Assembly: GCA_021779135.1 (NCBI GenBank)
Contig: JAJYBH010000018.1
Span: forward strand, 1-36,466
Direction: 5' to 3'
Origin: Deltaproteobacteria bacterium
Lineage (GTDB): Bacteria; Desulfobacterota; Desulfuromonadia; Geobacterales; Pseudopelobacteraceae
Length of the DNA stretch: 36,466 nucleotides
Made by a program: the position numbers and the translations under genes. Of this stretch, positions 11,769-36,466 are shown piece after piece. Under the pieces are notes generated by a model, which worked only from the letters and a program-made list of their open reading frames with translations, was not told the origin of the DNA and made no database searches. The stretch's first letter is position 1. Each line of letters opens with the position of its first letter.

Positions 11769-11820
11769 TGAAAGGAGAAGATGATTCTGAGTCTGTTTTT
11801 TTCCGGAAGGAGGGAGAGGC

Positions 11821-19700: not shown

Positions 19701-21299
19701 GAGGCTACCCCCGAGGGGCTGATCGACGTCCGCCACCACGAGGGGTACAACTTCAAACAGTACACCTCGGTTAAGAATGCCAAGGTCGATCTGGTGGTCT
19801 GGCGTCCGGGGACCAGTTCAACAATCGGCGTTCGCCCCACCTATTACAACAGCACCACCTCCATCCAGTTCCTGGCAGCCAATATGGGTACCGCCGGAGA
19901 GCGCAACGAGGTGTCCAAGGTGAGCAACCATTGCCTGGGGTGCCACAGCGACCAGAACAATGACAACGCTCCCTTTGAAAACGATTGCCGGACACCGCGG
20001 CAGTACGCCTGGGATCGCCAGAGCGTCGCTTCCCGCTATTCCCAACCCGGGACCACGACCTGGGGCAAGTACAACTCGAATACCTACCCGGCCGCCAACA
20101 AGAAGGATACGATCGTCAAGGCGTTTTCGGCCCATGGCAATGCAGCCGGCAACAAAGGTGGCTGGAGCGCTGCCAGCGGATATGACGCCGCCATTCCGAT
20201 AACGCGGGGAGCCGCCGGCACACAGAACGTACAATGCTTTGACTGCCATAACTCGCACGGTTCCAAGGCGGTCGGAACTACTTCCAGCTACGTGACCTTC
20301 AACGGCACCAGGAATGGCGCCAATCTCAAGGAAACCCAGAAAGGGAAGGGCGGCTACAATGTCACCTATAAGGCGTCGGCGAACACTGCCGGTGTCAACC
20401 CGTACAACACCGGAGCCGGGCAGTGTTTTGACTGCCATGAAACCGCCAGCGGCGGCATAACCACCCCCTGGGGGTACGCGTCGACCTTCGGTGCGGCCGC
20501 ACCGGTCATGGGCTACCAGGACACCCCGCATTTCGGGGCCGGGTCAAAGGGTTCGGTTGCCCGCTACGACTACCGCGATTCCCGGAAAACCATCGTGAGC
20601 AGCCATCTCAAGGCCCAGACCTTCCTGAATTATTCCGCGCAGGGGACGATCAACGGCCTGTGCACCCCCTGCCATGACCCGCATGGGGTAAGCAAGACGC
20701 TGGGCGCCAATCAGGAATACGCGGTGCCGCTGCTCAAGGGTACCTGGATGACCTCGCCCTATCAGGAGGACAAGCCCGAATCGCGGCCGAGCGGTTCCAC
20801 CGGTATCTATGCCCAGCCCCCCTGGCGTACCGACCGGAACACCTTCTCCAACATGTATGACAACAGCAAGCGCATCCGGGAGAGCGCCGACAAATTCGCC
20901 GGCCTCTGTCTGCAGTGCCATCGCCAGGAAAAGCTGACTGACGGCGTCAACAAGAATACCCCCTTCAAGAGTCTCGACCGGGTACATGAGTCGGTCCAGG
21001 GCTGGGGCGCCAATGACGAGCATTCCTATCCCTGCTCCAAGTGCCATCAGCCGCACAGCTCCGGTCTGCCGCGCCTGCTGCAGACCGACTGCCTCAACGT
21101 CAATCATCGCGGCAACGTGGCCTCCGGTGGCTATCCCAACCAGAGCGGCTGGCGTGCAGGCAGGGTTTACGGTTTCCCCATGGGCACCTATGCCTACAAT
21201 TACGGGTTCCGCTGCCACACGGATACCTACAACAAGGATGACAAGTACTGGCCTCCCAACGCGGCCGGCGCCCGTTGGAACAATGTCAGCCCCTGGTGA
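16767..21299 (+). CDS. Giant multihaem c-type cytochrome with CXXCH and CXXXXCH sites
   Basis: This 1510-residue exported cytochrome has a signal peptide (hydrophobic residues 9-30, cleavage probably after DAVAA). I count 27 CXXCH motifs (from CYDCH near residue 40 to CSKCH near residue 1430) and 6 CXXXXCH motifs (CNSVNCH, CSGIYCH, CSDVYCH, CSTDTCH, CSGTTCH, CRNGGCH), so up to 33 covalent haems. The six long motifs all fall in the first half, in alternating order with CXXCH motifs, the pattern of the Geobacter CxxxxCH/CXXCH repeat family. The last 300 residues have fewer motifs and are Gly/Ser/Tyr-rich. Many histidines provide distal ligands. Electron transfer at the cell surface or in the periplasm is the likely role. 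GAGGGGG precedes the ATG. It heads a long co-oriented cluster. Confidence 0.95.
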   Translation: MLYNKCAGLSALSLILLFSLIFSIFLVCASNNDAVAAIQCYDCHGTRTTVDNRPEDASFRNVSTGGFPGNHQRHLAYGATPNSCQKCHPGSAGYVSSHRDGRIKISGNINSSPLVTTYHNSTSAFPQTATPTLASCNSVNCHFEYGTPDWGSDPQNTNCSTCHASPPSDGSHPGLTGSGKKHGDYLGTGTGSCIKCHANNTTFAHATSAGKRGLVVRFTAAPNSGGSYSSDVSYPKYLPSQSPARNGTCSGIYCHSDGRGGPALITPQWSGADPLPCYGCHRGRTTDSSQANCNSSVVQGIWSSSSSKCVPDLTMSSNGHHRLVGPQWIRKYPCYYCHNNTVDTSGTIKNTAVHDNGGKDVKIAPQWNILGRYSASYNPSTKVCSDVYCHSDGTTDPEAVRPFAWTEPKTECNSCHGHPAGTCSTDTCHDGKIHPDGRLWAIKTGYPPGSEWMGAMPMFPNQGAGTARANSHPRHSQTNFTCDNCHAATVINGSCTTCHAGGIPAGGMGEVAHINPTYHVNKNKDVVFKDGGSYDALGKTCSGTTCHSGTIDPVWGGSVNGAVTCLGCHGGTTDVDDFGSFNGVQAKINMGQWYTSGHGRYSSSGNYPESGNPAANFPGNPCWYCHDNNVLHKDAANPYRLRHHTQYEQRFEKECVYCHMQGLDSECLACHNAAESLAPQLASTAVVTLHGGTPMSGCRNGGCHDTDATLHKTDSVRFWSSSEKADVKNQYVMMGVCLQCHDDDSGGQCTSCHTAPVDNPLKYSLGFDPKVEGSRFVKPKKARASSSHFGYKHYRAYQTDGTWMGGKFCWDCHDPHGDSNIFMIQGKVATTTDGTFGIPLTRADVVFSQKRSGTDYVRIKDPQNPDLPINGICNVCHVPTGKHYTRNGGDSHNLGRVCTTCHEHRFADSHANKQSCDSCHSNKKPVPKHTAFGLPRDCTKCHNGTINQRMDVMGQLKSNSHHIQGTEVNNRHCYACHWEATPEGLIDVRHHEGYNFKQYTSVKNAKVDLVVWRPGTSSTIGVRPTYYNSTTSIQFLAANMGTAGERNEVSKVSNHCLGCHSDQNNDNAPFENDCRTPRQYAWDRQSVASRYSQPGTTTWGKYNSNTYPAANKKDTIVKAFSAHGNAAGNKGGWSAASGYDAAIPITRGAAGTQNVQCFDCHNSHGSKAVGTTSSYVTFNGTRNGANLKETQKGKGGYNVTYKASANTAGVNPYNTGAGQCFDCHETASGGITTPWGYASTFGAAAPVMGYQDTPHFGAGSKGSVARYDYRDSRKTIVSSHLKAQTFLNYSAQGTINGLCTPCHDPHGVSKTLGANQEYAVPLLKGTWMTSPYQEDKPESRPSGSTGIYAQPPWRTDRNTFSNMYDNSKRIRESADKFAGLCLQCHRQEKLTDGVNKNTPFKSLDRVHESVQGWGANDEHSYPCSKCHQPHSSGLPRLLQTDCLNVNHRGNVASGGYPNQSGWRAGRVYGFPMGTYAYNYGFRCHTDTYNKDDKYWPPNAAGARWNNVSPW

Positions 21300-21342
21300 T
21301 CGAATGTATTCAGACACGCTAAACACCATTACGAGGATAGTT

Positions 21343-24300
21343 ATGAAGATAGTGAACAATAGATCCCGGCTGCTGTCGCGGAGAGGCTGTCATTGGCCGA
21401 TCTCCGGTGTGTGTTGCGGCTTGCTGCTCGGCATGGCTGTCACCCTGCTGTCCGGATGGTGTACCTCCGCATATGCCGTCGGCGGTGACACGATCTCTCC
21501 CTTTCCGAAGAACGATGCCCGTAGCGGCCTGCAACGTGCAACCGCGGCGGTGGTGGATAACGGCGGTAACCAGATTGTCGCCGGGTATCAGAACCTGAGC
21601 GGCGGGACGGATGACGAGTATCTGACCGTCAAGGTCAATACTGATGGTTCGGTGGCGTGGCGTTCCACCCATAATCACTCAACGGGGTCGGACCGGATTG
21701 TTGCCGTCGTGGTCGACGGCAGCAACGATGTCATCGTGACCGGCTATGTCTGGAACGGCTCCAACAACGATATCCACACCATAAAGTACCGTGGTACGGA
21801 CGGAAGCGTGGTCTGGGAGGATACCTGGAACGGTGCGGCCGGAGGGGCCGACATGGCCACCTCGCTGGCCTATGATCCCGTCAACAATCTGCTCTATGTG
21901 GCGGGCTCTACCCAGAACGGCGGCGGTTACGACGATTTTGCCATCCTCAAATACGCAAACTCCTCCGGCGGTCCGGCCAACCCGCCCAGCGGCGTGTATA
22001 CCTATAACGCCACCGGCAAAGGCCCTCACCGGATCAAGGCCGTGGCGGCCAATGCCGGCGGATTTGTAGTGACCGGCGAATCCTATAACGGCACCGATTT
22101 CGACGCGCTGACCGTGCAGTTCACCCTGGCCGGCGTCAAATTCCACGAGTGGAGTTACGCATCCAGTGGCGGGCAGTACGATGCCGGCAAAGCGGTCGCG
22201 TTCGATTCCGCCGGAAACATCGTGGTGGCGGCCAAGGTGTCCAATACAGTCAACACTGATATCATGCTCCTGAAATATGACGCCTCCAGCGGGGCCGTGG
22301 TGTGGCAGAAAAAGATCGACGGCGGCTTCGATGATGAACCTGCAGGGCTGGCGGTGGATGGAAGCGATATCTACCTGCTGGGGATGACCTGGACCCTGGC
22401 CGGTCATGAGGACTTCTATCTGGCCCGGCATCTCGGCACGACCGGTGACCCGGTCTGGTCCGGCGCCCTGGTCTACAATTCCGGCGGCGCAGATGCCGAT
22501 TTCCCGGTCGGGCTGGCCGTGGGAGCAGGTGCCAACGGAGGTGTCTTTGTAACCGGCTATGCGATTACCGTTGTCAGCAATGACATTCTGACCATCAAGG
22601 CGGCCAAGGCCAATGGGACTCTGCTCTGGCAGCAGCGCTACAACGGTACCGCTGACCGGGACGAGCGCCCGGCCGGCATAGGCCTCGCCGCATCAGGCGC
22701 CGTGTGTGTTGCGGGCTGGACGGACGCCTGGAGCGGCGGCGCGACGGACTATGACCTGTTGTCGCTCAGATATGATTCTGGCCCTCTCGACCCGCCCAGC
22801 GCACTGACGGCGACCGCCGTTTCCAATACTTCGATCCAGCTCAACTGGACCAACAACGCCTCCAATGCCGACGGCTACAGAATCGAACGCAAACTGGGCG
22901 ACTCCGGCAGCTATGTGGAGATCGCGACGGTCGGCCCCGCTGTCGCCACCTATGCCGATCCGGGATTGACAGGCGAAAATTATTATTACTACCGCGTGCG
23001 GGCCTACAATGCCGCCAATGGCAACTCCGCCTACAGCAACGAGGCGCATGCCCTGACCAAGGTTGTCAGTTACGTTTCGCCGGTCTGGACCTTCCTCTAC
23101 AATGGCGCCGCCAACAGTGAAGACTATGCCCTCTCCATTGCTGCCGGCAGTGACGACCATCCGGTTGTCACCGGCTACAGCACGCTGGAAGAGGAGGGTG
23201 TCCCGGGCAGTTTTTCGACGGATTACTATACCCTGAAGCTGGACCGGACCAGCAAGGCCGTCAAATGGAATGCCCGATACGACAGCGGTTCCGGCGGCAT
23301 GGACCGCGCTACCCTGGTCTCGGTCCTGCCTGACAACGATGTACTGGTCACCGGCAATGCCTATCTGTCCGGGGCCGGCGGGTTTGATACGGACGAGATC
23401 TATACCATTAAATACCAGGCCTCGACGCACAGTGACCCCCTGCAGCCGCCGCCCGAACTGTGGCACGACCAGTTCGGCTACAGCGGTTCCGATCGTGCCT
23501 CGGCGGTGGCCGTGGCGACCGATGCCTCCAAAAAATCGGTCATTACGGGATTCGGGACCAATGCATCCGGCAACGACGACATCTACGTGATCAAGTACAA
23601 CGCCGATGGCAGCCGCTCATGGCCGGCCGCCATCTATGACAGTGGCCGCTATGAGTATCCCACTTCCGTGGCATTTGACACCGCCGGCAATGTCTTTGTA
23701 ACCGGTTATACCGAGAGCGTGAGCGGTGATACCGACTGGTTCACGGCCAAGTATGACGGTGCAACGGGGGCGCTGCTCTGGTCGGATACCTTTGACGGCG
23801 GTATTCACGGCAATGATTATGCCCGTTCGCTGGCTGTCGATGCAGCCGGCAATGCCTATGTTACCGGCTACATTACAACCGCTGGTGGCCAGGATTTCCA
23901 TACAATAAAATATGATGGCGCCGCGGTATCCGCGCAGCGCCGGATCTGGGAAAAGAGTTATGACGGTCCGGTGCATGGCGACGATGAAGGTGTCTCCGTC
24001 AAGGTAGATCCGATCGACGGCGCCGTGATGGTGACCGGGACACAGACCACCGCCGCCGGTGATACCGATTTTCACCTGATCCGCTATCAGGCGGCAGACG
24101 GTGCGATAGTCTGGGAGCGGACCTTTAATCGCCCCGGCAGCTATGAGTACCTCTCCGCCATGACCCTCGACTCATCCGGCTACATCTACGTCACCGGAAA
24201 CAGCCGGGGCGGCCCGGACTATGATGCAAGTTTTGACGCATCATCCAATATCCTTTCGCTGATCTATGATTTTGAGGGGACATTCCTGGGGGCGCTGCTC

Positions 24301-27300
24301 AATAATGGCGGGGGCAGGCAGAATGAGGCCGAGGCCATAGCCGCGAACAACCGGGGCGAGGCCTTTGTCGCCGGTTTCTGGAAGAATGCCGCCGGCAACG
24401 GGGATTATGCCGTGCTTAAACAGACCAATAGCTACATCCTGGTTCCGGCCCCGCTGACCGTTACGCCGCAGGCCGATTATACCAGGCTGCGGCTGGGGTG
24501 GCAGGAAAACAGCCCCGGGGCCTCATTCCGGATCTGGCGCACCCTGGGGCCGGCTACCCCGACCAGTGACTGGGGTACCCCGATCTACGACGGTCCGGCG
24601 GGTGTCAGCACCTTTGACAATAGCGGACTCGGGCAGGGGATCAACTACTGTTACCGGATCGAGGCCTACATCGGCAGTCTGAATTCAAGGCGTATCATTG
24701 CCTGCGCGACCACGACCCTGCCGGCGGCAACCCTGGCTGTCCCCCAGGTGATCTCGACCAGCCAGATCAACCTCTCCTGGGGCAACGTTCCGGCCAACAG
24801 CGGCTACCGGATCGAGAGAAAGATCGAGGCCGGCGCCTGGAGCGTGCTGGCCGAAACGGCAGCCGATGCGACCAGCTTTAGCGATAGCGGCCTTACGGCC
24901 GGCACACTCTACTCGTACCGGCTAACCGTCTTGAATGCCGGCGGGGTGTCCGCGACCAGTAATGAACGATCTGCGACAACTATCCCGGATGCACCGCTAC
25001 AGAGTGCGCCGACAGCTATTACCGCAACACAGGCAACATTGAACTGGAGCAATGTCTCGGGGGAAACCGGCTACAAGATTGAGCGTAAGCAGGGTACGGG
25101 CGGCAGCTGGTCGCAGCTTGCGTCAATCCCGAGTCCGAACGTCGTAACCGCTAACGACAGCGCGCTCACAGCGAATACCCAGTACTACTACCGCATCCGG
25201 GCGACGAATGCCGCCGGGGATTCCGTCTACAGCAACGAGCAGGGAGTGCTGACGCTGTTTGATTCGACCGTGTTGAGAGCCGCCGCCGGAACTTCAACCG
25301 CCACGATCGATCTGAGCTGGGACAATGTCGCCGGAGAGACCGGGTATACCATCCAGATGGGGGCTTGCGGCTACAATGGCGGATCGTATGACATCCCCTA
25401 CTGTATTGCCGCCTATGACTGGGCCTGGAACGGTTGGGTGAATCTGGCCACGCTGGGGCCCGACGTGACAACCTATCAGCACGCCGGCCTGGCAGCCGGG
25501 ACCGCGTATCGCTACCGGATTATCGCCAATGTTGCCGGAAACAGTTCCGCCCCCAGTAATACAATGATAGGATGGACCGCCCTGGCAGCTCCGGCGACCA
25601 TTGATGTCGCTCCTGCCTCGCAGACCGCGCTGACGGTCTCCTGGAGCGATGTTACCGGCGAAACCGGGTATGCCGTCGAACGCACCCTGGCCAGCCCGGT
25701 GAGCTGGGCCGTGGTTGCCGGCGCCGGTGCGCTGGCCGCCAACACCGTCTCGTATGCCGATAGCGGGTTGGCGCTTCAGACGGCCTACTGCTACCGGGTC
25801 AGGGCGATCAGCAGCATTTCCGGAACCTCTGCCACCAGTGCCGAGAAATGCCTGTCAACGCCCTTATCGGCTCCGGCGCTGAATGCCCCGATTACGGCGT
25901 CTACCACCCAGATTGACCTTTCCTGGAACAATATCAGCGGTAATACCGGCTATGAACTCCAGAGGCGTACCCTCAACGACCCGAATAATCCGGCCGGCGG
26001 AGCCTCGGAAGGGGAGTGGGGCGCTTGGGGCGCGTCGGTCGTTATCCCGGCGGACACGACATCATATTCCGCCACCGGACTTACCCCGGGATACACATAC
26101 CAATTCAGGGTGCTGGATACCTATAGCGGCGGGAAATCGGCCTGGAGCAACCTGCGACAGTTGACTACCATACCGCCGGCCCCGCTGATCAGCGGGGTGC
26201 GGATCGACTCTACCTCGCAGATGACGATCCTGTGGAATGATGTGTATGGTGAGACGAGCTACGGTCTGGAGTGGAAAGCCGGCAGCGGCGGGGCCTGGAG
26301 CGCGCCGATACCTGTGGCTGTCAACGCTGCGAGTTATGCCCACAGCGCCCTCACTCCCGACACGACCTATTACTACCGCATCCGGGCCACCGGCCCCGGC
26401 GGCACCTCGGCATACAGCGCGGAGGTTTCACAAACCACATCGCTGCCCCAGCTGAATCCGCTGACCGGTATTACTGCCTCCAGGATTGACCTCTCCTGGA
26501 ACTCGATTCCAGGCAATAGCGGCTATACGATCGAGCGCAAGATAGAAAATGGCGCCTGGGCCACCCTGATCACCACGGCGGCCAATGCGGTTGCGTATAC
26601 CGATACGGGGCTGACTGCCGGCACCCTCTATTCCTACCGCCTGAAGATGCTGACCGGAGCCGGCGCGACAGCACCAACCAATGAACAAGCCGCGACCACA
26701 ACGCCCGCTTCGACACCCCTGACGGTTACCGTGGTAAACGCATCCCAGGCGCAGTACTCATGGCCGGTTACGCCGGGTGCAACCAATTACAAGATCAGCA
26801 GAAAACCGGGGAGTGGCGGGGGCTATGTGGAGATTGCAAATATAGCCGCCGGTTATGCAAGCAGTTATTGCGGATATCCGGTACCCCGCATCGATTGCGC
26901 GGCGCCCACGCCGCTGACGGTCAGCGGCATTGATGGTGGTCTGGCCGGCAATACCCAGTACTGCTATAAAATAATCGCCTGGAACAGTACCGGCGGTGAT
27001 TCGGCCTCCAGTGCGGATGTGTGCGTGACAACCTCCGGGCTGGCAAATGACAATCTTTCGGCGGAGGCGCTCAATTCCTTCAAGGTCAGGCTGTCCTGGA
27101 CGGAGCTGTCCTGCGTCCCGGTCTCGTGCGCGGCCCCGCAAGGGTATGAATTGGAGCGCAAGGTCGCCTATGGTACCTGGACATCGGTAGCAACCGTCCC
27201 CGGTTCACAAAAAGAATTTACTGATACCTACGGATTGGAGCCGCTCAAGGTCTATACCTATCGCGTCCGCTCCTACAGCGCGGCAGACCACTCGCCGTAC

Positions 27301-27357
27301 AGCGAGACGAGCATCACGATGCCTGCCTACCAAGCGGACGACACGGCCTGCCAATGA
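21343..27357 (+). CDS. Secreted beta-propeller / fibronectin type III repeat protein
   Basis: This 2004-residue protein has a signal peptide ending near residue 46 (SGWCTSAYA). Residues about 48-480 are propeller-like repeats with recurring IVVTGY and TIKYD units. One fibronectin III domain follows (about 480-570), then a second block of the same propeller repeats (about 572-1030), then ten more fibronectin III domains to the C-terminus. I count 11 such domains, each with the core GYRIERK ... YYYRVRA. No catalytic motif is seen. The protein should be exported and may serve as a scaffold or adhesin for the neighbouring cytochrome. ATG at 21343 has GAGG 7 bases upstream and begins the signal peptide; the open frame extends 119 codons upstream inside the cytochrome gene, which I reject. 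Confidence 0.88.
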   Translation: MKIVNNRSRLLSRRGCHWPISGVCCGLLLGMAVTLLSGWCTSAYAVGGDTISPFPKNDARSGLQRATAAVVDNGGNQIVAGYQNLSGGTDDEYLTVKVNTDGSVAWRSTHNHSTGSDRIVAVVVDGSNDVIVTGYVWNGSNNDIHTIKYRGTDGSVVWEDTWNGAAGGADMATSLAYDPVNNLLYVAGSTQNGGGYDDFAILKYANSSGGPANPPSGVYTYNATGKGPHRIKAVAANAGGFVVTGESYNGTDFDALTVQFTLAGVKFHEWSYASSGGQYDAGKAVAFDSAGNIVVAAKVSNTVNTDIMLLKYDASSGAVVWQKKIDGGFDDEPAGLAVDGSDIYLLGMTWTLAGHEDFYLARHLGTTGDPVWSGALVYNSGGADADFPVGLAVGAGANGGVFVTGYAITVVSNDILTIKAAKANGTLLWQQRYNGTADRDERPAGIGLAASGAVCVAGWTDAWSGGATDYDLLSLRYDSGPLDPPSALTATAVSNTSIQLNWTNNASNADGYRIERKLGDSGSYVEIATVGPAVATYADPGLTGENYYYYRVRAYNAANGNSAYSNEAHALTKVVSYVSPVWTFLYNGAANSEDYALSIAAGSDDHPVVTGYSTLEEEGVPGSFSTDYYTLKLDRTSKAVKWNARYDSGSGGMDRATLVSVLPDNDVLVTGNAYLSGAGGFDTDEIYTIKYQASTHSDPLQPPPELWHDQFGYSGSDRASAVAVATDASKKSVITGFGTNASGNDDIYVIKYNADGSRSWPAAIYDSGRYEYPTSVAFDTAGNVFVTGYTESVSGDTDWFTAKYDGATGALLWSDTFDGGIHGNDYARSLAVDAAGNAYVTGYITTAGGQDFHTIKYDGAAVSAQRRIWEKSYDGPVHGDDEGVSVKVDPIDGAVMVTGTQTTAAGDTDFHLIRYQAADGAIVWERTFNRPGSYEYLSAMTLDSSGYIYVTGNSRGGPDYDASFDASSNILSLIYDFEGTFLGALLNNGGGRQNEAEAIAANNRGEAFVAGFWKNAAGNGDYAVLKQTNSYILVPAPLTVTPQADYTRLRLGWQENSPGASFRIWRTLGPATPTSDWGTPIYDGPAGVSTFDNSGLGQGINYCYRIEAYIGSLNSRRIIACATTTLPAATLAVPQVISTSQINLSWGNVPANSGYRIERKIEAGAWSVLAETAADATSFSDSGLTAGTLYSYRLTVLNAGGVSATSNERSATTIPDAPLQSAPTAITATQATLNWSNVSGETGYKIERKQGTGGSWSQLASIPSPNVVTANDSALTANTQYYYRIRATNAAGDSVYSNEQGVLTLFDSTVLRAAAGTSTATIDLSWDNVAGETGYTIQMGACGYNGGSYDIPYCIAAYDWAWNGWVNLATLGPDVTTYQHAGLAAGTAYRYRIIANVAGNSSAPSNTMIGWTALAAPATIDVAPASQTALTVSWSDVTGETGYAVERTLASPVSWAVVAGAGALAANTVSYADSGLALQTAYCYRVRAISSISGTSATSAEKCLSTPLSAPALNAPITASTTQIDLSWNNISGNTGYELQRRTLNDPNNPAGGASEGEWGAWGASVVIPADTTSYSATGLTPGYTYQFRVLDTYSGGKSAWSNLRQLTTIPPAPLISGVRIDSTSQMTILWNDVYGETSYGLEWKAGSGGAWSAPIPVAVNAASYAHSALTPDTTYYYRIRATGPGGTSAYSAEVSQTTSLPQLNPLTGITASRIDLSWNSIPGNSGYTIERKIENGAWATLITTAANAVAYTDTGLTAGTLYSYRLKMLTGAGATAPTNEQAATTTPASTPLTVTVVNASQAQYSWPVTPGATNYKISRKPGSGGGYVEIANIAAGYASSYCGYPVPRIDCAAPTPLTVSGIDGGLAGNTQYCYKIIAWNSTGGDSASSADVCVTTSGLANDNLSAEALNSFKVRLSWTELSCVPVSCAAPQGYELERKVAYGTWTSVATVPGSQKEFTDTYGLEPLKVYTYRVRSYSAADHSPYSETSITMPAYQADDTACQ

Positions 27358-27438: not shown

Positions 27439-27471
27439 AAAAATATCTGTAATGAAGGGTGGTGAGGACTG

Positions 27472-27534
27472 GTGAAGAAAACGAAATACGCTCGTCCCAG
27501 GATTGTGGGGAGTGCAGTGGTTCACCCCTGCTGA
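27472..27534 (+). CDS. Candidate modified-peptide precursor, 20 residues, ending His-Pro-Cys before UGA
   Basis: A GTG start with GAGG 4 bases upstream opens 20 codons: MKKTKYARP, then RIVG, then SAVVHPC, followed by TGA. The composition (basic start, YxxPxI element, Gly-Ser centre, terminal Cys) resembles precursors of radical SAM-modified peptides, and YxxP is like the leader element recognised by PqqD-type domains. A strong hairpin after the UGA makes selenocysteine at residue 21 possible. Against that, the frame has no stop after the UGA and runs directly into the 825-residue protein, so a Sec product would be a huge fusion. The simplest reading is a free 20-residue peptide ending in Cys. 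A noncoding structured leader is also possible. Confidence 0.45.
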   Translation: MKKTKYARPRIVGSAVVHPC

Positions 27535-27547
27535 CAAGAGAGGTCGG

Positions 27548-27573
27548 GAGGCATCGGTGCATACCGGTGCCTC
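27548..27573 (+). other. SECIS-like or terminator-like hairpin
   Basis: GAGGCATCGGT (27548-27558) pairs with ACCGGTGCCTC (27563-27573) through 11 pairs, one of them T-G, around the loop GCAT. The loop begins 24 bases after the UGA at 27532-27534 and starts with G, which fits bacterial SECIS criteria. It is followed by TCTTTA, a poor terminator tract. An alternative outer pairing of AGAGAGG with CCTCTCT is also possible. Confidence 0.5.
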
Positions 27574-27630
27574 TCTTTATGTATTCAGCGTCACCACAAG
27601 GTTCGGGTCCTCTCAATCACATTACAAATT

Positions 27631-30108
27631 ATGAGATACCATAACTACATATCGCTAATTCTCTCCAGTGCCCTTTTCGTACTTCTGTTGAATTCCCCCG
27701 TACAAGCAACCGTTTTGACCGCGGATACCGTCTGGCATGGCGATGTGGTCGTCACTGATGACGTTCTGGTGCCTGTGGGCATTACGCTGACTGTCCTCGC
27801 CGGAACGCGTATCACGCTGCAGGTCGCCGAAAACACCAAGACCGATCCCGAATATCTTTCACCGCTTGCCGAAATCACGGTCCGGGGCGCCTTGCGGGTA
27901 CAGGGGAGTCAGCAGTCGCCGGTTGAATTCGGCTCCTCCGCCGGAAAGCCGGGCACCTGGGCCGGCATCATCATCGATAACGGAAGCGCGGAGATAGCCA
28001 ACTGCCGTATCAGCGCCGCTGATACGGGGGTCTATCTAACGGGCGGGACCCTGCGGCTCACCTCATCCACCCTGACCGGCAACCGTTACGGGGTTGTCGT
28101 GCAGGGGGCAAACTCGACGGCGATCCTCGGCAACAGCAGGATAACCGGCAATGACGTTGGTCTGTTTACCTACGCTGGTGCAACGGTAACACGGCAGGAT
28201 ACGCAGGTAACCGGAAACGGCAAGCGCGATCTGTACGAGCGCCCTGCTGTAGCGGCGACTCCGCTCATGCACGAATTTCCCTACAAAGAGCTGCCGGTCG
28301 CCAGGGAATATGGTGATGAAGCCTTGGCAGGGGAAACTGTCTGGCAGGGGAGGATCCGGGTGAACGGCCTCATCCGCGTCCCCGATGGCGGGAGACTGAT
28401 TATCCTTCCCGGTACGGTCGTCGAATTCAGCAAAAAGGACACCAACGGAGATGGCATCGGCGAAAACGGTCTTTTCATCCAGGGTCGCCTGCTTGCCAAG
28501 GGGACCCGCGAAGCGCCGATCTTCTTCCGCTCAGCTGAAAAAAACCGGAAAATGGGTGATTGGGACTCCATCAACATCATGAACAGCGATGGCAGCCAGA
28601 ACCTGATCGAATATTGCCAGATCGAGGATGCCTACCGGGGGGCACACTTTCACTTTGCCAATCTAGCGATCACCAACACGGTATTTCGCAACAACTATCG
28701 CGGGGTCCAGTTTCAGGAATCGGCCATTGCTATCCGGAATAGCTGGATTTATGGCAACAAGAGCGGTCTGCAGGGGCGTGACTCGACCATCGTATTCAAT
28801 AATAATCAGGTAGCCGATAATTATGACGGAGCCAATTTCTTCAGGGTCAACCTGACTGCCGAGGGGAACCGCTTCCTGCGGAACCAGAAGGAGGGTCTGC
28901 GCCTACGGGAAAGCACCTCGGCGATTACGGGAAATCTCGTGGATGCTAACCGCTTCGGGGTGATGATTGCCGATACATATCGCAGCAGTTTCAGCCGCAA
29001 TGTCATCTCCGCCAACAGTGAGTTCGGCGTCTCCCTGAAGAACTCCGACAATCTGGAACTGTCCGGCAACTTCTTTACCGGCAACGGTATCAATGGTCTA
29101 AATATCCAGGACTCCAGCGCCACCGTGCGGGGCAACCTTTTTGCCGGCAATGGCGAGCGGGGAATCGGCATCCTGTCGTTCAGCGGATATCTGACGGGAA
29201 ATAATTTTATGAAAAACGGTCTGTACGCGGTCGATTATGAAGGCACTGCCGATCTGGCGGCACCTGACAACTGGTGGGGCGTTGCCAAACCGGAACAGGT
29301 TATCGGCGACAGGCGGATCGACCCGCGGCGCGGCAGGGTCACGGCCGACCCCGCAAGCAGCGTGCCGCAGGCCATCACCTGGCCCCTCAACGAGATTTCG
29401 GCGGACGCATCCTGGTCTGGCAGCGTTCGGGTGAATGCAACGGTAACCGTTCCCAAGGGGAGCAGCCTGGTTATTGAACCGGGTACCCGGGTGCTGTTCG
29501 CCAGGGGAACCGGTTTGACGGTACAGGGAAAGCTGGAAGCGGTCGGTACACGGACGGACAAAATCACCTTCAGCGCTCAAGAGCCGCGCGAGGATTCGCT
29601 CTGGGATGAGATAATCATGGAATACGCGGATGGGAGCAAGATCGCCAACTGCATTTTCGAATACGCCACCTGGGGACTGCACAGCCACTTCACAAATCTC
29701 ACCGTGACAGACAGCCTGTTCCGCAAAAATTCCGGCGGCATCCGCTTCCGGAGCGGTCCGATGCTGATTACCCGCTCGGTCTTCACGGGGAACGGAATCG
29801 GCATCAGGGCCTATCGCGGTAACGCCGTCATCCGGGAGAATCTGATAACCGACAATGACACCGGCATCTTTGTCCGGGAAAAGGGGAGCGGCCTGAAGAT
29901 CACCGGCAACAATCTGGCCGCCAATCGTGGCTATGGTGTCCGCATCGGCGATTTCAACGACGAGGATGTCTCTGCCCGGGAGAACTGGTGGGGGCCTGGC
30001 GATCCGCAGCAGTATCTGTACGACGGGCGCAGCGAACCGGGAATCGGTATGATTCTGTATGAACCGTATCGCCATGAACCGCCCAGCCTGGAAGGTGTCC
30101 AGCCATGA
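27631..30108 (+). CDS. Exported right-handed beta-helix (NosD/CASH-like) protein
   Basis: This 825-residue protein has a signal peptide (ISLILSSALFVLLLNSPVQA). It has three similar modules starting near residues 33, 235 and 592, each opening with W-x-G and a stretch of VP-x-G-x-x-L-x-I-x-PGT, followed by parallel beta-helix repeats such as NTVFRNNYRGVQF and ITGNDVGLF. This matches the NosD/periplasmic copper-binding or CASH (carbohydrate-binding and sugar hydrolase) type of beta-helix. No catalytic site is evident. A structural or ligand-binding surface role is likely. There is no Shine-Dalgarno sequence before the ATG, which is unusual; translation may be coupled to the upstream short ORF. 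The stop overlaps the next start (ATGA). Confidence 0.85.
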   Translation: MRYHNYISLILSSALFVLLLNSPVQATVLTADTVWHGDVVVTDDVLVPVGITLTVLAGTRITLQVAENTKTDPEYLSPLAEITVRGALRVQGSQQSPVEFGSSAGKPGTWAGIIIDNGSAEIANCRISAADTGVYLTGGTLRLTSSTLTGNRYGVVVQGANSTAILGNSRITGNDVGLFTYAGATVTRQDTQVTGNGKRDLYERPAVAATPLMHEFPYKELPVAREYGDEALAGETVWQGRIRVNGLIRVPDGGRLIILPGTVVEFSKKDTNGDGIGENGLFIQGRLLAKGTREAPIFFRSAEKNRKMGDWDSINIMNSDGSQNLIEYCQIEDAYRGAHFHFANLAITNTVFRNNYRGVQFQESAIAIRNSWIYGNKSGLQGRDSTIVFNNNQVADNYDGANFFRVNLTAEGNRFLRNQKEGLRLRESTSAITGNLVDANRFGVMIADTYRSSFSRNVISANSEFGVSLKNSDNLELSGNFFTGNGINGLNIQDSSATVRGNLFAGNGERGIGILSFSGYLTGNNFMKNGLYAVDYEGTADLAAPDNWWGVAKPEQVIGDRRIDPRRGRVTADPASSVPQAITWPLNEISADASWSGSVRVNATVTVPKGSSLVIEPGTRVLFARGTGLTVQGKLEAVGTRTDKITFSAQEPREDSLWDEIIMEYADGSKIANCIFEYATWGLHSHFTNLTVTDSLFRKNSGGIRFRSGPMLITRSVFTGNGIGIRAYRGNAVIRENLITDNDTGIFVREKGSGLKITGNNLAANRGYGVRIGDFNDEDVSARENWWGPGDPQQYLYDGRSEPGIGMILYEPYRHEPPSLEGVQP

Positions 30109-30893
30109 GCAGCGAATTGACCCATTGCGGCTGTGCCGGCTCAAACCAAGGGCCCCGACAGCTTCGCCCTTCATTGGGACCGGCATTCCGGGCGCTGCGG
30201 AAAAGGCTCGCTTTTCCCGTACTGTTGTTGCTGTTGACCTGCTTCTCTCTCCCTGCCTCCGTGTCGGCGCTGGATACGTTCGTATTGAGCGGCCGGATCA
30301 TGAACATAGACGGCCAGCCGGTCAGCGGGGCTGAGCTCTTTGTCTACGACAGTCCCGTCACTCGGCGGCCGGCGGATTTCATCTCGGCCCGCACGGGACA
30401 GGACGGACGCTTCAGTCTGACACTGCCGCGCAAGAAGGTCTGGGCCGTTGCCCGGGTACGCGGTAGTGACAAATTCGGCCCGCTGCTGCCCGGGGACCGC
30501 CATTCAGGTGAAGCATTGATTCTGGAGCCGGACGACAGCGCGGAGTTGCGGCAGGATTTTACGGTGGTCAATATTTGGGAAGCGGCGCGGCAGAAGCAGA
30601 AAACAAGCGCTGAGTACCAACGTGTGACCGGCCGGGTGCTGGACCGCCAGGGTAAACCGGCTGACAATGCCTATGTCTTTGCCCATCCGCAAAAAACCGT
30701 GCGGGGAATACCCGGGCATATTTCAGCCTGGACCGATGAAAGCGGCATCTACACCCTGTACCTTCCGCCGGGTCGTCATTATCTGGGGGCAAGCACCGTC
30801 TTCCCGCCTCCTCAAGGATCCAGCGCCAGCAGGGAATTGGTCGTGGAACCCGGCAAAAATGCAGTTGCTATTGATATTAAGTTACCACTATAA
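30105..30893 (+). CDS. Exported protein with two carboxypeptidase-regulatory-like domains
   Basis: This 262-residue protein has an unusually long N-terminal cytoplasmic extension (about 35 residues) followed by a hydrophobic segment (FPVLLLLLTCFSLPASVSA), so it may be a signal peptide or a membrane anchor. Two beta-sandwich domains follow, one at about residues 62-150 (LSGRIMNIDGQPVSGAELFVY ... DGRFSLTLP) and one at 177-262 (VTGRVLDRQGKPADNAYVFAH ... SGIYTLYLPPGRHYL). This is the carboxypeptidase regulatory-like or Cna-B-like fold, a non-catalytic surface domain. The start codon overlaps the stop of the beta-helix gene, so the two are translationally coupled. Confidence 0.8.
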   Translation: MSSELTHCGCAGSNQGPRQLRPSLGPAFRALRKRLAFPVLLLLLTCFSLPASVSALDTFVLSGRIMNIDGQPVSGAELFVYDSPVTRRPADFISARTGQDGRFSLTLPRKKVWAVARVRGSDKFGPLLPGDRHSGEALILEPDDSAELRQDFTVVNIWEAARQKQKTSAEYQRVTGRVLDRQGKPADNAYVFAHPQKTVRGIPGHISAWTDESGIYTLYLPPGRHYLGASTVFPPPQGSSASRELVVEPGKNAVAIDIKLPL

Positions 30894-30953
30894 TCAAAAA
30901 ATAGTCCGGCGATTAGGTTGCAATCAGCAATAGACCTGCCCGAAGGAGATTGT

Positions 30954-31511
30954 ATGAAACATGTTGTAATTTCACTTTTACTTCTGTGCGCCTTTTTGAT
31001 GACACCTCCAGCCCAGGCCTGCGTGGGAAAAACACTTTTCGTGGGGATATCCGGCCCCCCCCAGGAGATGCTCCTGGCCGAGATGGTTTCCCAGCTGATT
31101 ACCGAACGTACCGGAACCACGGTGAAAATCCAGCAATACAAGGACAGTGCGGAGCTTTACAATGCGATCAAAAAGGGCGAGGTCGGGATGCTGGTGGAGA
31201 GCACGGACCGTGCCCTCCAGATCCTTGGCCGCAAGGAGGGTAATTCCCAACTGGCCTACGAACTGGTTAAAAAAGAGTATCGCAAGAGCATGAATCTGGT
31301 CTGGCTCGATCCGTTCGGCACCAGTCATCCGCATGCCCCGGTAATTTCGCTTGATACCATCGGTCATTTGCCTGCCCTCCCCAAACTGCTCAATAAACTG
31401 GCCGGTGTAATGAATGATGACAATTACGCCAAGTTGCTCAAATCCCTCAAATCCGACGAAAAACCGCACCAGATCGCCCGCGATTTTCTGAAAGCCAAAA
31501 AGCTTATCTGA
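30954..31511 (+). CDS. Small periplasmic OpuAC-like substrate-binding protein
   Basis: This 185-residue protein has a signal peptide (MKHVVISLLLLCAFLMTPPAQA) and a mature part beginning with cysteine, so a lipoprotein or a disulfide is possible. The fold resembles the OpuAC glycine-betaine-binding family: GKTLFVGISGPPQEMLLAEMV then TVKIQQYKDSAELYNAIKKGEVGML. It is shorter than usual solute-binding proteins (about 270 residues), so the second lobe is reduced and ligand binding is uncertain. No ABC transporter permease or ATPase is adjacent. AAGGAG lies 6 bases before the ATG, and an in-frame TTG at 30918 is not preferred. Confidence 0.72.
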   Translation: MKHVVISLLLLCAFLMTPPAQACVGKTLFVGISGPPQEMLLAEMVSQLITERTGTTVKIQQYKDSAELYNAIKKGEVGMLVESTDRALQILGRKEGNSQLAYELVKKEYRKSMNLVWLDPFGTSHPHAPVISLDTIGHLPALPKLLNKLAGVMNDDNYAKLLKSLKSDEKPHQIARDFLKAKKLI

Positions 31512-31516
31512 TCGAC

Positions 31517-32443
31517 GTGGATCATCAGTCACCGCAACCGATATCTACACGCCTGTACCGCTTTCTGGGTGGCGGCAATCTAGCGCTCATTCTGTTCGGC
31601 GTTATAACATTGCTGACACTCCCGGGAACCTTCGGGTTTGGCCGTTCTTTATATTCCAATCCGTTTTTCAAGGTCGTACTCGGCCTATTGATGGTGAACC
31701 TGCTCGTCTGCACCCTGCAGCGCTGGAGAAGGCTGAAGTGGCCCGTTCTGCTGCTGCACGGTGGGGTTCTGGTTGTCATGGTCGGCGCCTTCCTTACTTC
31801 GCTGGGGTATGTGGCCACGGTCAACATCCTTGAGGGCGGGAAGACGGAGCTGGCATACCGCTGGGACCTGGAGCAGGACATGCCGCTTGGCTTTGATCTG
31901 GCGGTGGAAAAGATCCATCGGGAATACCTGCCGCTTCCGGTCAAGGTCGGGGTTCTGCAGGGAGTGGAAAAGGTCGGCCTGTTTACCCTCAAAACCGGCG
32001 AGAGTTTCCTTGTCGGAGATTACCGGGTCCAGGTTGACTCGATCGATCTTGATTCGGATTCCCTTCATCTGACGATCTTTCAGGGAGAACGCACCCTCGG
32101 TACCGCTACAACGGCCGGAGTATCCAGCCTGCCGGTCGGATTTCCCTATGCGTTCAAACTTGTGGCGTTCAAAAACCCGGTGCTCCGGCGAACCTGGGTA
32201 GACCTGAAACTCACGCAGGATGCCACACTGCTGACGCATGGCAGCACCGAAATAAACAAGCCCTTTCAGTGGGGTGGCTTGTACTTTTACTCCACTTTGC
32301 TCGACAAGGCAGCCAACGGGGAGCCGTTTGCCGGTATTCAGATCGTCAAGGACCCGGGCCGTCCCGTGGTATTCGCCGGATTTGCACTGGCGGGGATCGG
32401 TGCCCTGGCACTATTTATGAGAAGGTTGACGGGAAAAAGGTAA
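31517..32443 (+). CDS. ResB-like cytochrome c biogenesis protein
   Basis: This 308-residue protein has about four membrane helices: near residues 20-40 (LALILFGVITLLTL), 50-68, 76-100 (PVLLLHGGVLVVMVGAFL) and 282-300 (FAGFALAGIGALALF). A periplasmic domain of about 180 residues lies between helices 3 and 4. This layout and the LLHGG segment match ResB/CcsB of cytochrome c maturation system II, which presents haem to apocytochromes. The usual partner CcsA/ResC is not nearby. The start GTG at 31517 lies 5 bases after the preceding stop and lacks a clear ribosome binding site, so coupling is likely. Confidence 0.82.
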   Translation: MDHQSPQPISTRLYRFLGGGNLALILFGVITLLTLPGTFGFGRSLYSNPFFKVVLGLLMVNLLVCTLQRWRRLKWPVLLLHGGVLVVMVGAFLTSLGYVATVNILEGGKTELAYRWDLEQDMPLGFDLAVEKIHREYLPLPVKVGVLQGVEKVGLFTLKTGESFLVGDYRVQVDSIDLDSDSLHLTIFQGERTLGTATTAGVSSLPVGFPYAFKLVAFKNPVLRRTWVDLKLTQDATLLTHGSTEINKPFQWGGLYFYSTLLDKAANGEPFAGIQIVKDPGRPVVFAGFALAGIGALALFMRRLTGKR

Positions 32444-32499: not shown

Positions 32500-34407
32500 T
32501 TGTTCAAGATGAAACGTCCCGAAGCCTGTGAAATCCACGGAAGCCATGGGGGACACGGCAATTGGATGCTCGTCGGCATGACCGTGGCATCTCTCGCCCT
32601 CATCATGTGGCATGTATGGGCCTACGGACCCAGCGCCCACCTGGCGCCTGCCGGTGATGCATCGGAGCTGTTCCCCGCCAAGCTGGGAAGAGAGTTGTGG
32701 GACCTGCTCATTAACAAACACGGCATCCTTGGCGAACTCTGGGAGATAATGCCGTACTTCCTCGCCGGTATATTCATCGCCGGTTATCTGCGTACCTACA
32801 AGGTTGCCGTCAAACTGCAGGCATCCCTCAGGAAGTACGGAGTGTTGAGTGTATTTCTCGCCTCTTTTGTTGGCATTATCACCCCGCTGTGTGCCTGCGG
32901 CACACTGACCACGGCCATCAGCCTCCTGTTTGCCGGCATCCCCCTGGCGCCGGTCATGTCCCTGATGGTCACCTCTTCCCTGTTAAGCCCCTCCGCCTAC
33001 CTGCTGACCCTGAACGACCTTGGTCCGGAATGGACCGTTGTCAGGACATTATCTGCTTACTCCATGGGGATCTTTGCGGGACTGGTTACCCATTTCATGA
33101 GTAAACATGGCTGGTACAATAATAAAGACATCTTCATCGAAGGCGCCATCATCAGAGGCGACTTCCATGACGATGATTATCCCGATGAACGCCTGCGTTG
33201 CAACTGCCGCAGGAATTTCGGCAACCGGGTGGCGGTCAGGACGGGAAACAAATTCCTGGTGTTTCTGGCAAAATCCTCTGAGATGACGTGGGTGGTCGGA
33301 AAGTATATCCTGGTCGGGGTTGTTGTCGGAATGGTGGTCGAGCGCTACTTGCCCAGCGAGTGGATATATCGTTATTTCGGGCAGAAGAACCCGCTGAATA
33401 TCGTCTGGATAACCCTGGCCTCAATACCGATGTTTCTCCACCAGTTGAGTGTCTCCAGTATCCTCTTCCATATCAAGAGCTCCCTGGATGGCACGCTGGA
33501 CAGCGGCGCAGCCCTGGCGTTCCTGATTGGCGGCCCGGTGACGGCCGTGCCCACCATGGTGCTTTTCTGGACCTTTTTCAAGAAAAGGGTGTTCGTGCTG
33601 TACATGCTGATCTGTATATTCGGGACCCTGCTGATCTCTTATACCTTTCAGTTCCTGATCTTTGCGCCGGGTGTGGATCTGGGCAACCCGCTCCTGAAGG
33701 CGGTAAATTCGATTTCAGGTGGAAGGTCCGCAATCCTACGGAAAACAGACCCCAACGTACGCATGGTCATGGATCCCTCCGGCAAGGGGCTCATTGCCAC
33801 CTACAGCAACGACCTGGATGGAAAGGGGCCCATCGTATTCGATGCCTCGCCGTTCCGTTTCAGCACCCCTGCAGCAAACAGCTATGACAACCGCCGATAC
33901 ATCCTCAATGTAGCCGGATGGCTGGAGCAGAATTCCAACTCGCCGGTGCAGAAGAAAATACTGGTCTACAGCCTGGCTGACAATGCCGGTGAGCGCGCGT
34001 CGTCACCCCTGGGAGCCGCGGCTCTGGCGGATCTCGCGAGGCAGGGCTTCTCCGTGAAAATGGCCAACCGCCGGGATGCCCCCCGGATATCCGAACAACT
34101 GCTGGCGGAATGCGGCCAACTCTGGCTGTTCTTTGCTCCCCATAGCAAAGACGTACTGAGCGCCGAAGAACTGCAGGTGATCTCAAAGTACAATGACCAC
34201 TACAAGGGCATCCTGGTTGTAGCCTCCGATCCCCGTCCGGACGGGATTGACGATCAGCCGGCCAATTGTGTGTCGTCGCGTTATGGAGTCCGGTTTTCCG
34301 GGTGTGCTGATAACAGTCGGGAACTGCACGTTTCCGTTGCCTCAAGCCTTTTTAACCGGACTTCTGAATTTCTCGGCACAATCTTGAAGCTGGTACACAA
34401 GGCATAA
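32500..34407 (+). CDS. DUF318/ArsP-type permease with soluble C-terminal domain
   Basis: The 635-residue protein starts with a His-rich segment (CEIHGSHGGHGNW). About eight membrane helices cover residues 20-400 and contain the family motif GIITPLCACGTL near residue 125 and a second half VGKYILVGVVVGMVV ... FLIGGPVTAVPTM. This is the DUF318 (ArsP-like) permease fold, whose members export metalloids or other compounds. After residue 405 a soluble domain of about 230 residues follows (PIVFDASPFRFSTPAANSYDN ... ILVVASDPRPDGID), resembling DUF4350/GldG-like domains. The fusion is unusual. TTG at 32500 has TGAGGT 5 bases upstream and is preferred; an in-frame ATG at 32509 is the alternative. Confidence 0.82.
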   Translation: MFKMKRPEACEIHGSHGGHGNWMLVGMTVASLALIMWHVWAYGPSAHLAPAGDASELFPAKLGRELWDLLINKHGILGELWEIMPYFLAGIFIAGYLRTYKVAVKLQASLRKYGVLSVFLASFVGIITPLCACGTLTTAISLLFAGIPLAPVMSLMVTSSLLSPSAYLLTLNDLGPEWTVVRTLSAYSMGIFAGLVTHFMSKHGWYNNKDIFIEGAIIRGDFHDDDYPDERLRCNCRRNFGNRVAVRTGNKFLVFLAKSSEMTWVVGKYILVGVVVGMVVERYLPSEWIYRYFGQKNPLNIVWITLASIPMFLHQLSVSSILFHIKSSLDGTLDSGAALAFLIGGPVTAVPTMVLFWTFFKKRVFVLYMLICIFGTLLISYTFQFLIFAPGVDLGNPLLKAVNSISGGRSAILRKTDPNVRMVMDPSGKGLIATYSNDLDGKGPIVFDASPFRFSTPAANSYDNRRYILNVAGWLEQNSNSPVQKKILVYSLADNAGERASSPLGAAALADLARQGFSVKMANRRDAPRISEQLLAECGQLWLFFAPHSKDVLSAEELQVISKYNDHYKGILVVASDPRPDGIDDQPANCVSSRYGVRFSGCADNSRELHVSVASSLFNRTSEFLGTILKLVHKA

Positions 34408-34454: not shown

Positions 34455-34775
34455 ATGAAATCACAGGTATTCGATGTAAAGAACATCAAGAAATTCACTG
34501 ATGAAAAACGCCATATGGAAATCATATGGTCCGATGATCACGCCAAGATCAGCCTGATCTGCATGAAGCCGGGGCAGGAAATCATCACCCACACCCACCA
34601 CGGCAGCCACATCTGGACTGTCATGGAAGGCACTGGCGAGCTTGTTTCCGGTAAACAGGCACAGACCATAACAATGGGGCAGATCGTTGTCGTGCCAGCT
34701 TTTGAGGACCATGGCATACGGAACTCTTCGACCGAAAACCTGGTGATCGCCTCGATAACAGGGCAGGGCGACTAG
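34455..34775 (+). CDS. Cupin-domain protein
   Basis: This 106-residue protein is a single conserved beta-barrel of the cupin_2 type. The metal-binding motif 1 is GQEIITHTHHGSHIWTVMEG, containing His residues and a Glu, and motif 2 is GQIVVVPAFEDHGIRNS. A metal-dependent dioxygenase, isomerase or sensor role is possible; the substrate is unknown. GGGAGG lies before the ATG with good spacing. It lies between the permease gene and the GeoRSP operon. Confidence 0.85.
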   Translation: MKSQVFDVKNIKKFTDEKRHMEIIWSDDHAKISLICMKPGQEIITHTHHGSHIWTVMEGTGELVSGKQAQTITMGQIVVVPAFEDHGIRNSSTENLVIASITGQGD

Positions 34776-34833: not shown

Positions 34834-34866
34834 AAATTTGAAAAGCTAAGAAAGCCGGTGAAAGAG

Positions 34867-35181
34867 ATGCAAGGTATCCATCGTAATCCCGATGTGCTCT
34901 GGCGTGAGGAAGATGAACAGCGCGATCAGGCGCAAACCGCCCTGGAGCAGGGTGGTGACGCCGGGGACATCGCTACGTCGCTGCTGTTCAAGGATGGAGT
35001 CATGCTGTCCCTCAACATCCTCGGCACCGAGATCTGGAAGCTGTGCGACGGCCGCACCAGTGAGGAAATCGTGGCCGAACTCCTCTCCTGCTTCGAAGTG
35101 GATGAGGACGCGTTGCGTACGGATGTGACCGGTTTCTTGAACGAGTTGAAGGAGAAGGGGTTTATCCACTATGGGGAATGA
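34867..35181 (+). CDS. GeoRSP system PqqD-family protein
   Basis: This 104-residue protein is a PqqD-like domain (RiPP recognition element): FKDGVMLSLNILGTEIWKLCDGRTSEEIVAELLSCF then VTGFLNELKEKGFI. Such domains bind the leader of a substrate peptide and deliver it to a radical SAM partner. The context (radical SAM/SPASM enzyme overlapping it by 11 bases, then a SPASM protein) matches the GeoRSP three-gene set described for Geobacter. ATG at 34867 is preceded by GGTG; GTG at 34858 is the alternative start and would add 3 residues. Confidence 0.82.
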   Translation: MQGIHRNPDVLWREEDEQRDQAQTALEQGGDAGDIATSLLFKDGVMLSLNILGTEIWKLCDGRTSEEIVAELLSCFEVDEDALRTDVTGFLNELKEKGFIHYGE

Positions 35182-36175
35182 ATGGCTGGTCAAGGCGCCA
35201 CTTACCATCAATTGGGCTCTTAACAACAGTTGCAACTTTGCCTGCCGCCACTGCTACAGCCGGGTGGAGACGGGTGAGGAACTGGATGGCGACACACTGC
35301 GCGGCTGTTTCGACAAGGTGGCCAAGATGGGGGTCATGGCGGTCAATTTCGGCGGTGGCGAGCCGCTGCTGCGTGCCGACCTGCTGGAGATGGCCAGTCA
35401 CGCTGCCTCCCTGAAGTTGCGGGTCTCCATGAACAGCAACGGCTATCTTCTGGACCGGGCCAAGGCCGGGGAGTTGAAGCAGGCCGGTTTTGCCGCGGTG
35501 GGGATCAGCCTCGACAGCCATGATGCCGCGGTGCACGACCGCTTCCGCGGGGTCGAGGGAAGTCACGCCCGGGCTCTGGCGGCCCTCGGTTTCCTGAAGG
35601 AGGCCGGCATCAGGACCTCCCTCTCCACCGTGATCTGCACGATCAACCTGGATTCGCTCGACGAGATCATCGCCCTGGCCCGTCAGTACGGCGTCAGCCG
35701 TCTCAATCTGCACAACTTCAAGTGCGCCGGCCATGGACTGGCCAACAAGGACGAACTCGACCTTTCGCCCGCTCAGTGGCAGGCCTTTTACCGCCGCGCC
35801 ATGGCCGCCAAGGACAAGTGCGCCGACCTGGAGCTGTCGTTTGACGACCCGGTGATCGCCTCCCTGGGGCTGCCTACCGAAAGCTCCCTGGTGAAGGGGA
35901 GTGTCTGCGGCAAACTCTCCCTGGCCATCAAGGCCAACGGCGATATAACCCCCTGTGGCTTCATTCCGGTCGTGATCGGCAACATCGTCAGGGACGACCT
36001 GGGCGAGGTGTGGCGCAATGCACCGCTACTGACCAAGATGCGCCACAAGGAACCGCACGGCAAGTGCGGCACCTGCGATCACTACAGCGACTGTCTGGGC
36101 GGCTGCAGCGCCCGGGCCCTGGCCCTGACCGGTGATATCAACAACCCTGATCCGCACTGCTGGGTGGAACCGTGA
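35171..36175 (+). CDS. GeoRSP system radical SAM/SPASM enzyme
   Basis: This 334-residue iron-sulfur enzyme has the radical SAM cluster motif CNFACRHC at residues 21-28 (the Cys residues bind the 4Fe-4S cluster), SAM-binding GGGEPLL near residue 62 and MNSNGYLL near residue 92. A C-terminal SPASM-type region has Cys residues in GSVCGKLSLAIKANGDITPCGF and CGTCDHYSDCLGGCSARALALTG, which would bind auxiliary clusters. SPASM enzymes commonly modify peptides. Its start overlaps the PqqD-family gene by 11 bases, and its stop overlaps the next start (GTGA), so the operon is tightly coupled. Substrate peptide unknown. Confidence 0.9.
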   Translation: MGNEWLVKAPLTINWALNNSCNFACRHCYSRVETGEELDGDTLRGCFDKVAKMGVMAVNFGGGEPLLRADLLEMASHAASLKLRVSMNSNGYLLDRAKAGELKQAGFAAVGISLDSHDAAVHDRFRGVEGSHARALAALGFLKEAGIRTSLSTVICTINLDSLDEIIALARQYGVSRLNLHNFKCAGHGLANKDELDLSPAQWQAFYRRAMAAKDKCADLELSFDDPVIASLGLPTESSLVKGSVCGKLSLAIKANGDITPCGFIPVVIGNIVRDDLGEVWRNAPLLTKMRHKEPHGKCGTCDHYSDCLGGCSARALALTGDINNPDPHCWVEP

Positions 36176-36466
36176 GCCTGGATGAGCTTGCCCGGCCGAT
36201 CACCATTTACTGGGATCTGACGCCTGTCCCCACGCCGGCGCCGGAGTACACTCTGATCTGCGATCAGATCAAGGAGATCAAGCCTCTTCAACTGCATCTG
36301 CTGGATAGCGAAGTCAGCAACAGCTTGCAGATACTGAAGAGGATGAAGGGTGCGCCCCTGGCGGTGCTGCTGACCGCCGCCCCAGCCGCCCTGGCACCGG
36401 CAATCATCGAGGACCTGCACACCCTTGGGCTGAAGGGCCTCCTGCTGCTGGCTGACTCCTTCGCCG
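36172..36466 (+). CDS. GeoRSP system SPASM-domain protein (partial, runs off the window)
   Basis: GTG at 36172 overlaps the stop of the radical SAM gene (GTGA). The frame is open to the right edge (98 codons). The sequence begins MSLDELARPITIYWDLTP and continues as an alternating beta-alpha pattern typical of a radical SAM-like barrel: TLICDQIKEIKPLQLHLL, then LAVLLTAAPAALAPAII. The expected C-terminal SPASM cysteines lie beyond the window. The PITIYWDL start and the position fit the third GeoRSP protein. Confidence 0.75.
   Translation, partial: MSLDELARPITIYWDLTPVPTPAPEYTLICDQIKEIKPLQLHLLDSEVSNSLQILKRMKGAPLAVLLTAAPAALAPAIIEDLHTLGLKGLLLLADSFA

Follow-up and report, generated by a model that had tools for sequence, protein, structure and literature searches.

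The DNA considered here is a stretch of 36,466 nt, hereafter the window, that comprises contig JAJYBH010000018.1 (C18) of Deltaproteobacteria bacterium assembly GCA_021779135.1. At nt 27472–27534 (+ strand) it carries a very small gene for a 20-residue peptide, V(M)KKTKYARPRIVGSAVVHPC, its ORF reading VKKTKYARPRIVGSAVVHPC, then TGA. An earlier note on this DNA had described a GTG-initiated open reading frame (ORF) of 20 residues at this site, and it is present as described. GTG 27472 is its only start codon, because an in-frame TGA at nt 27463–27465 bounds the ORF upstream. A probable ribosome-binding site, AAGGGTGGTGAGG, is located at nt 27455–27467 (+), and AAAGGAGG-like sites occupy the same position in nearly all relatives of the gene, while a sigma-70 scan gave no promoter directly 5' of it. 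The TGA is followed by an intrinsic terminator-like hairpin with a T-rich tail (nt 27546–27585, +).

The peptide gene is the first gene of a same-strand cassette, the maturase genes of which lie about 7 kb downstream and belong to the GeoRSP system. These are a PqqD-family peptide chaperone, or recognition element (nt 34858–35181, +; TIGR04302, 158 bits, cut-off 100), a radical S-adenosylmethionine (SAM)/SPASM maturase (nt 35171–36175, +; TIGR04303, 557 bits, cut-off 400), and the start of the GeoRSP SPASM protein (nt 36172–36466, +), which is cut by the contig end and continued on contig C152. The ends of C18 and C152 overlap by 156 bases, and the membership of this protein in TIGR04304 is borne by two pieces, C18:36184–36456 (45.8 bits, positions 1–94) and C152:16371–17096 (254.4 bits, positions 50–292), each of which by itself stays below the cut-off of 300.

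Relatives were recovered at once by a degenerate DNA pattern that covered the C-terminal half of the peptide. Improved patterns followed, the first looser ones having included chance matches and missed Asn, Asp, Ala and Thr variants. The family has the consensus MKK(x)xYxxP[RK][IV]VG[ST][AS]xVHPC-stop, is 18–20 residues in length, and shows a recognisable Shine-Dalgarno sequence in nearly all members. Readable instances number 72 in the order to which the window belongs, while a scan of 84,980 species genomes gave at least 117 instances on at least 116 contigs; the two sets overlap, and the copies total well over 100 across many metal- and sulfur-cycling bacteria. Three copies, on C18, C61 and C172, are found in the genome of the window itself. 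Among the matches listed there are 121 distinct 20-mers, and the peptide-bearing taxa are Geobacteraceae, Desulfuromonadales, Deferrisomatales, Nitrospirota and a few other or unclassified bins. At two positions left unfixed by the patterns, the distinct 20-mers have Tyr at -14 from the Cys (118 of 121, with Phe in the other three) and Arg or Lys at -10 (112 of 121). When the Cys and the stop were left out of the pattern, 75 matches were obtained in the 141 genomes of the order, and 74 of these still had both, whereas a reversed control pattern gave only scattered single matches. The ORF is far beyond chance, and the tiny peptide gene is real. A gene of 20 codons falls below usual gene-calling limits, so the peptide could be missed in annotated genomes. 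The search of relatives for the same ending, as suggested in the earlier note, shows the peptide frame to be conserved across phyla; most copies are not 5' of a beta-helix gene. No NCBIfam model matched three peptides of the family. The family appears to be undescribed, GeoRSP itself is already a named system, and priority is not guaranteed.

The peptide also tracks the GeoRSP genes. Scored by the strict pattern against the GeoRSP PqqD in the 141 genomes of the order, 31 have both, 4 the peptide only, 4 GeoRSP only and 102 neither (Fisher p 1.6e-22, ignoring relatedness). With looser variants, the peptide pattern among them being run on five genomes only, this table becomes 33/5/2/101. In a second phylum, 200 genomes from the class of a Nitrospirota genome gave 22/1/4/173 (Fisher p 3e-24, likewise). 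Among 34 further peptide-bearing genomes, 31 carry the GeoRSP radical SAM gene, which scores over the cut-off in 27, just below it in 2, and is split over contigs in 2. Physical linkage is seen at 16 loci, where the peptide gene closely follows the radical SAM gene on the same strand, with a stop-to-stop distance of 92–176 bases. One such locus (L208) has the order PqqD, radical SAM, peptide, SPASM, cysteine desulfurase. The short peptide is both conserved and linked to maturase genes, as is expected of a precursor of a ribosomally synthesised and post-translationally modified peptide (RiPP). At L208 (6078–7223) and at similar loci with the peptide beside the radical SAM gene, the enzyme encoded after the SPASM gene is a TIGR01977-type cysteine desulfurase, a type related to the selenocysteine lyase SclA.

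Conservation, the identity of the stop codons (see below), linkage and co-occurrence together argue that the peptide ORF encodes a RiPP-type precursor on which the GeoRSP radical SAM system acts, a reading to which we assign a probability of about 0.86. The earlier note had proposed a peptide precursor, a selenocysteine-containing leader, or both; the first proposal is retained for a radical SAM maturase, since the peptide tracks and adjoins the GeoRSP genes, and the second is not. The candidate maturase, which that note did not name, is the GeoRSP enzyme. As judged from sequence, translation of the 20-residue peptide would begin at its own start and stop at the UGA, which leaves a free cysteine as the C-terminal residue, and the hairpin would terminate or attenuate transcription before the next gene is reached. 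The basic YxxPx[IV]VG half is presumed to be the recognition sequence for the PqqD-like chaperone, and the near-invariant VHPC-COOH end the modification site of the radical SAM/SPASM enzyme, a modification that the SPASM-only partner possibly joins. By profile, the GeoRSP enzyme is closest to heme-pathway enzymes, the mycofactocin maturase and PqqE, and oxidative chemistry at the peptide C terminus is therefore a reasonable guess. Perhaps the product is a small cofactor that bears a metal, sulfur or selenium; it may work in the cell envelope, where its partners would be the transporters, the NosD-like beta-helix protein, and the giant multiheme cytochrome and fibronectin-III (FN3) proteins encoded beside peptide copies.

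Several points weigh against this interpretation. No clear GeoRSP is present in five genomes of the order that bear the peptide, including one that is 97% complete, and two GeoRSP genomes of the order have no peptide (in the GeoRSP genomes G025 and G122 none was found by the looser pattern or near the cassette). Many copies are far from a maturase. The copy in the window starts with GTG, and its ribosome-binding site is weaker than that of most relatives. The disregard of relatedness in the p-values counts here as well, although patchy presence nonetheless repeats in separate phyla. Translation and modification, like binding, product and function, are predicted features, and part of this pattern would also be expected if the peptide were a small partner protein that stays unmodified.

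The UGA and the hairpin 3' of it had previously been read as a possible selenocysteine (Sec) codon with a selenocysteine insertion sequence (SECIS)-like element. The hairpin exists, with 13 pairs (8 GC) and a 4-base loop at nt 27546–27575, then TTTATGTATT, but the role proposed for it is not supported by the relatives. The 72 instances in the order end in TGA (49), TAA (20) or TAG (3), and the 117 among the matches listed in the all-species scan in TGA (73), TAA (39) or TAG (5), so that no in-frame UGA is conserved. The nearest relative of the window copy, VKKAKYARPRIVGSAMVHPC (G004:C175), has a TAA stop and then an almost identical hairpin. Across 145 distinct instances, a hairpin below -10 kcal/mol occurs after 92% of TAA/TAG stops versus 96% of TGA stops, and its distance from the stop is widely variable (standard deviation 14–22 nt) rather than fixed to a UGA; runs of at least four T 3' of the hairpin are present in 58% and 38% of the two stop classes versus 5% of shuffles. 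The family hairpins look like intrinsic terminators or attenuators, and no Rfam family reached its gathering score in the window. Because a hairpin of this kind also follows the relatives that end in TAA or TAG, the UGA behind HPC is best read as an ordinary stop codon and not as Sec. The frame after the TGA is, as had been stated, open into the 825-residue ORF of the beta-helix gene (857 codons in the window), whereas in most other members adjoining a beta-helix gene the post-stop frame closes after 0–69 codons. Likewise, the geometry shared with a Sec site at nt 12028 loses its force as an argument, as downstream frame and hairpin distance vary among relatives.

A regulatory leader peptide, the translation of which would act on the hairpin and so control the beta-helix gene by attenuation, appears unlikely. 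It would suit the terminator-like hairpin between the peptide and the next gene, the lack of a clear ribosome-binding site at the beta-helix ORF, and the position of the hairpin inside an operon in the 16 maturase-linked loci. The amino-acid sequence, however, is conserved across phyla while the downstream genes differ, so that no constant regulated gene was found among the copies; many copies are at the 3' end of a giant gene and not before a regulated one, there is no run of one regulatory codon, and the co-occurrence with GeoRSP is left unexplained.

Slightly less likely still is that the peptide stays unmodified, as a small partner or structural component of the giant secreted proteins, and is only inherited along with GeoRSP. 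Among the 65 instances of the order with enough upstream sequence, 55 are directly behind a same-strand gene, and these 55 upstream genes encode at least 4 CxxCH heme motifs in 31 cases and at least 700 residues in 38, counts which have no background rate and make the association of peptide copies with multiheme or giant upstream genes suggestive only. Against such a role, 16 copies lie in a maturase operon without such a giant gene, the peptide has no signal peptide, and precursors to which PqqD-type chaperones bind typically combine a YxxP motif with an invariant C terminus.

Least probable is a Sec peptide, in which the UGA is read through the hairpin as SECIS to give HPC-U or a beta-helix fusion: UGA is the commonest family stop, the window hairpin is at a SECIS-like distance from it, the genome probably uses Sec elsewhere (nt 12028) and the 857-codon frame is open, but 44 of the 117 among the matches listed, one of them being the closest relative, which shares the hairpin, end in TAA or TAG, the hairpins are equally strong, variable in distance and terminator-like after either class of stop, the maturase SbtM (see below) is absent from the genome, and the reading is already refuted as a family property. 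A Sec-containing leader controlling the beta-helix gene fails with it, since the post-stop frame is unconserved and most copies are not before such a gene. The site at nt 12028 is a separate matter, independent of the peptide. It is an in-frame TGA (WAPW-U-PHC) in a thioredoxin-like ORF (nt 11791–12258) with an N-terminal zinc-ribbon-like CxxC pair, and a plausible selenoprotein.

The named GeoRSP families (TIGR04302, TIGR04303 and TIGR04304) cover enzymes only; the window has the PqqD and radical SAM members above their cut-offs plus the start of the SPASM member, and the peptide is proposed here as their substrate. In the open-access literature, the part covered by our search (subscription papers lay outside it), there was no relevant mention of GeoRSP and no described substrate. 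The pyrroloquinoline quinone (PQQ) system resembles GeoRSP in having a very short precursor (PqqA), a PqqD-type chaperone and a radical SAM/SPASM enzyme, but the Glu and Tyr that form PQQ are absent from the GeoRSP peptide, the conserved end of which is VHPC. In the SbtA-SbtM selenobiotic system (TIGR04082), to which the earlier note alluded, short peptides, some with selenocysteine, are targets of a radical SAM/SPASM enzyme. By contrast, the GeoRSP peptide family has no in-frame Sec codon. SbtM was considered as the maturase and rejected, the best match to TIGR04082 in the same genome scoring 76.5 bits against a cut-off of 350. In the mycofactocin system (MftA peptide, MftB chaperone, MftC maturase), the maturase is one of the peptide-modifying enzymes to which the GeoRSP enzyme is most closely related; the window enzyme is not itself an MftC-type maturase (TIGR03962, 174 bits, cut-off 265). 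MftA-type peptides are longer, with 34–78 residues predicted (PMC3023750), whereas the GeoRSP peptide has 18–20 residues, a Cys end and often several dispersed copies per maturase, and no oxidoreductase partner set was seen with it.

Naming the peptide makes GeoRSP testable in vitro with a synthetic peptide (MKKTKYARPRIVGSAVVHPC). Giant multiheme cytochromes and a putative selenium transporter of the YedE type recur with the system, which points to selenium/sulfur handling or extracellular electron transfer as the field of a new small cofactor. It is conceivable, though rather doubtful, that the output of GeoRSP is an envelope cofactor derived from a peptide, the third such kind after PQQ and mycofactocin. 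The C-terminal His-Pro-Cys of the 18–20-residue peptide would then be modified, possibly loaded with selenium, sulfur or a metal, and the peptide would serve those giant multiheme cytochromes and FN3 proteins that have a copy of it at their genes.

Between the peptide and the maturase genes, the cassette (all + strand) begins with a NosD-like right-handed beta-helix protein, its first large gene (nt 27631–30108; Pfam Beta_helix 8e-41, NosD 5e-35), which is conserved in GeoRSP cassettes. No Shine-Dalgarno sequence is visible before its ATG at nt 27631, in agreement with the earlier note, and the ORF has a signal-like N terminus. Profile searches and cassette comparison identify the following genes as encoding a CarboxypepD_reg/DUF4198-like protein (nt 30105–30893), a small OpuAC-type substrate-binding protein (nt 30918–31511), a ResB-like membrane protein (nt 31517–32443), an ArsP_1 permease related to SO_0444/SaoE metal efflux transporters (nt 32500–34407), and a cupin protein (nt 34455–34775). 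On C152 the remainder of the SPASM gene is followed by genes for a PhnD-like binding protein, a 180-residue protein and a YedE homologue. Among 58 GeoRSP loci, many of them incomplete stretches, the beta-helix gene is found in 48, SPASM in 48, YedE in 44 and the PhnD-like protein in 43. The YedE-family and PhnD-like proteins, often with the 180-residue protein, are regular cassette members at loci L092–L095, L369–L408 and L413. The YedE proteins scanned score 299–405 bits (cut-off 200) with the 'putative selenium transporter' family, a name that comes from annotation; sulfur compounds, too, are transported by relatives of YedE. A selenium link may exist by this other route, as GeoRSP cassettes commonly include such a transporter.

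Directly upstream of the peptide lies a gene for a giant secreted FN3/SBBP protein (nt 20986–27357, +; profile search), the true start of which is probably near nt 21340, at the signal peptide. It is preceded by a 1510-residue ORF (nt 16767–21299) with CxxxxCH/CxxCH multiheme cytochrome domains (TIGR01904, 1.5e-26). In four genomes (L166, L171, L172 and L178) the genes that come after the peptide encode a cytochrome c3/c7-TIG protein, a subtilase and a PPIC isomerase, families that were assigned from one scanned member per cluster. Several copies are found at contig ends (G009:C4, C45, C62; G040:C32, C63, C64; G082:C1, C13), and these look as if the sequence just 5' of the peptide is a repeat that breaks assemblies.
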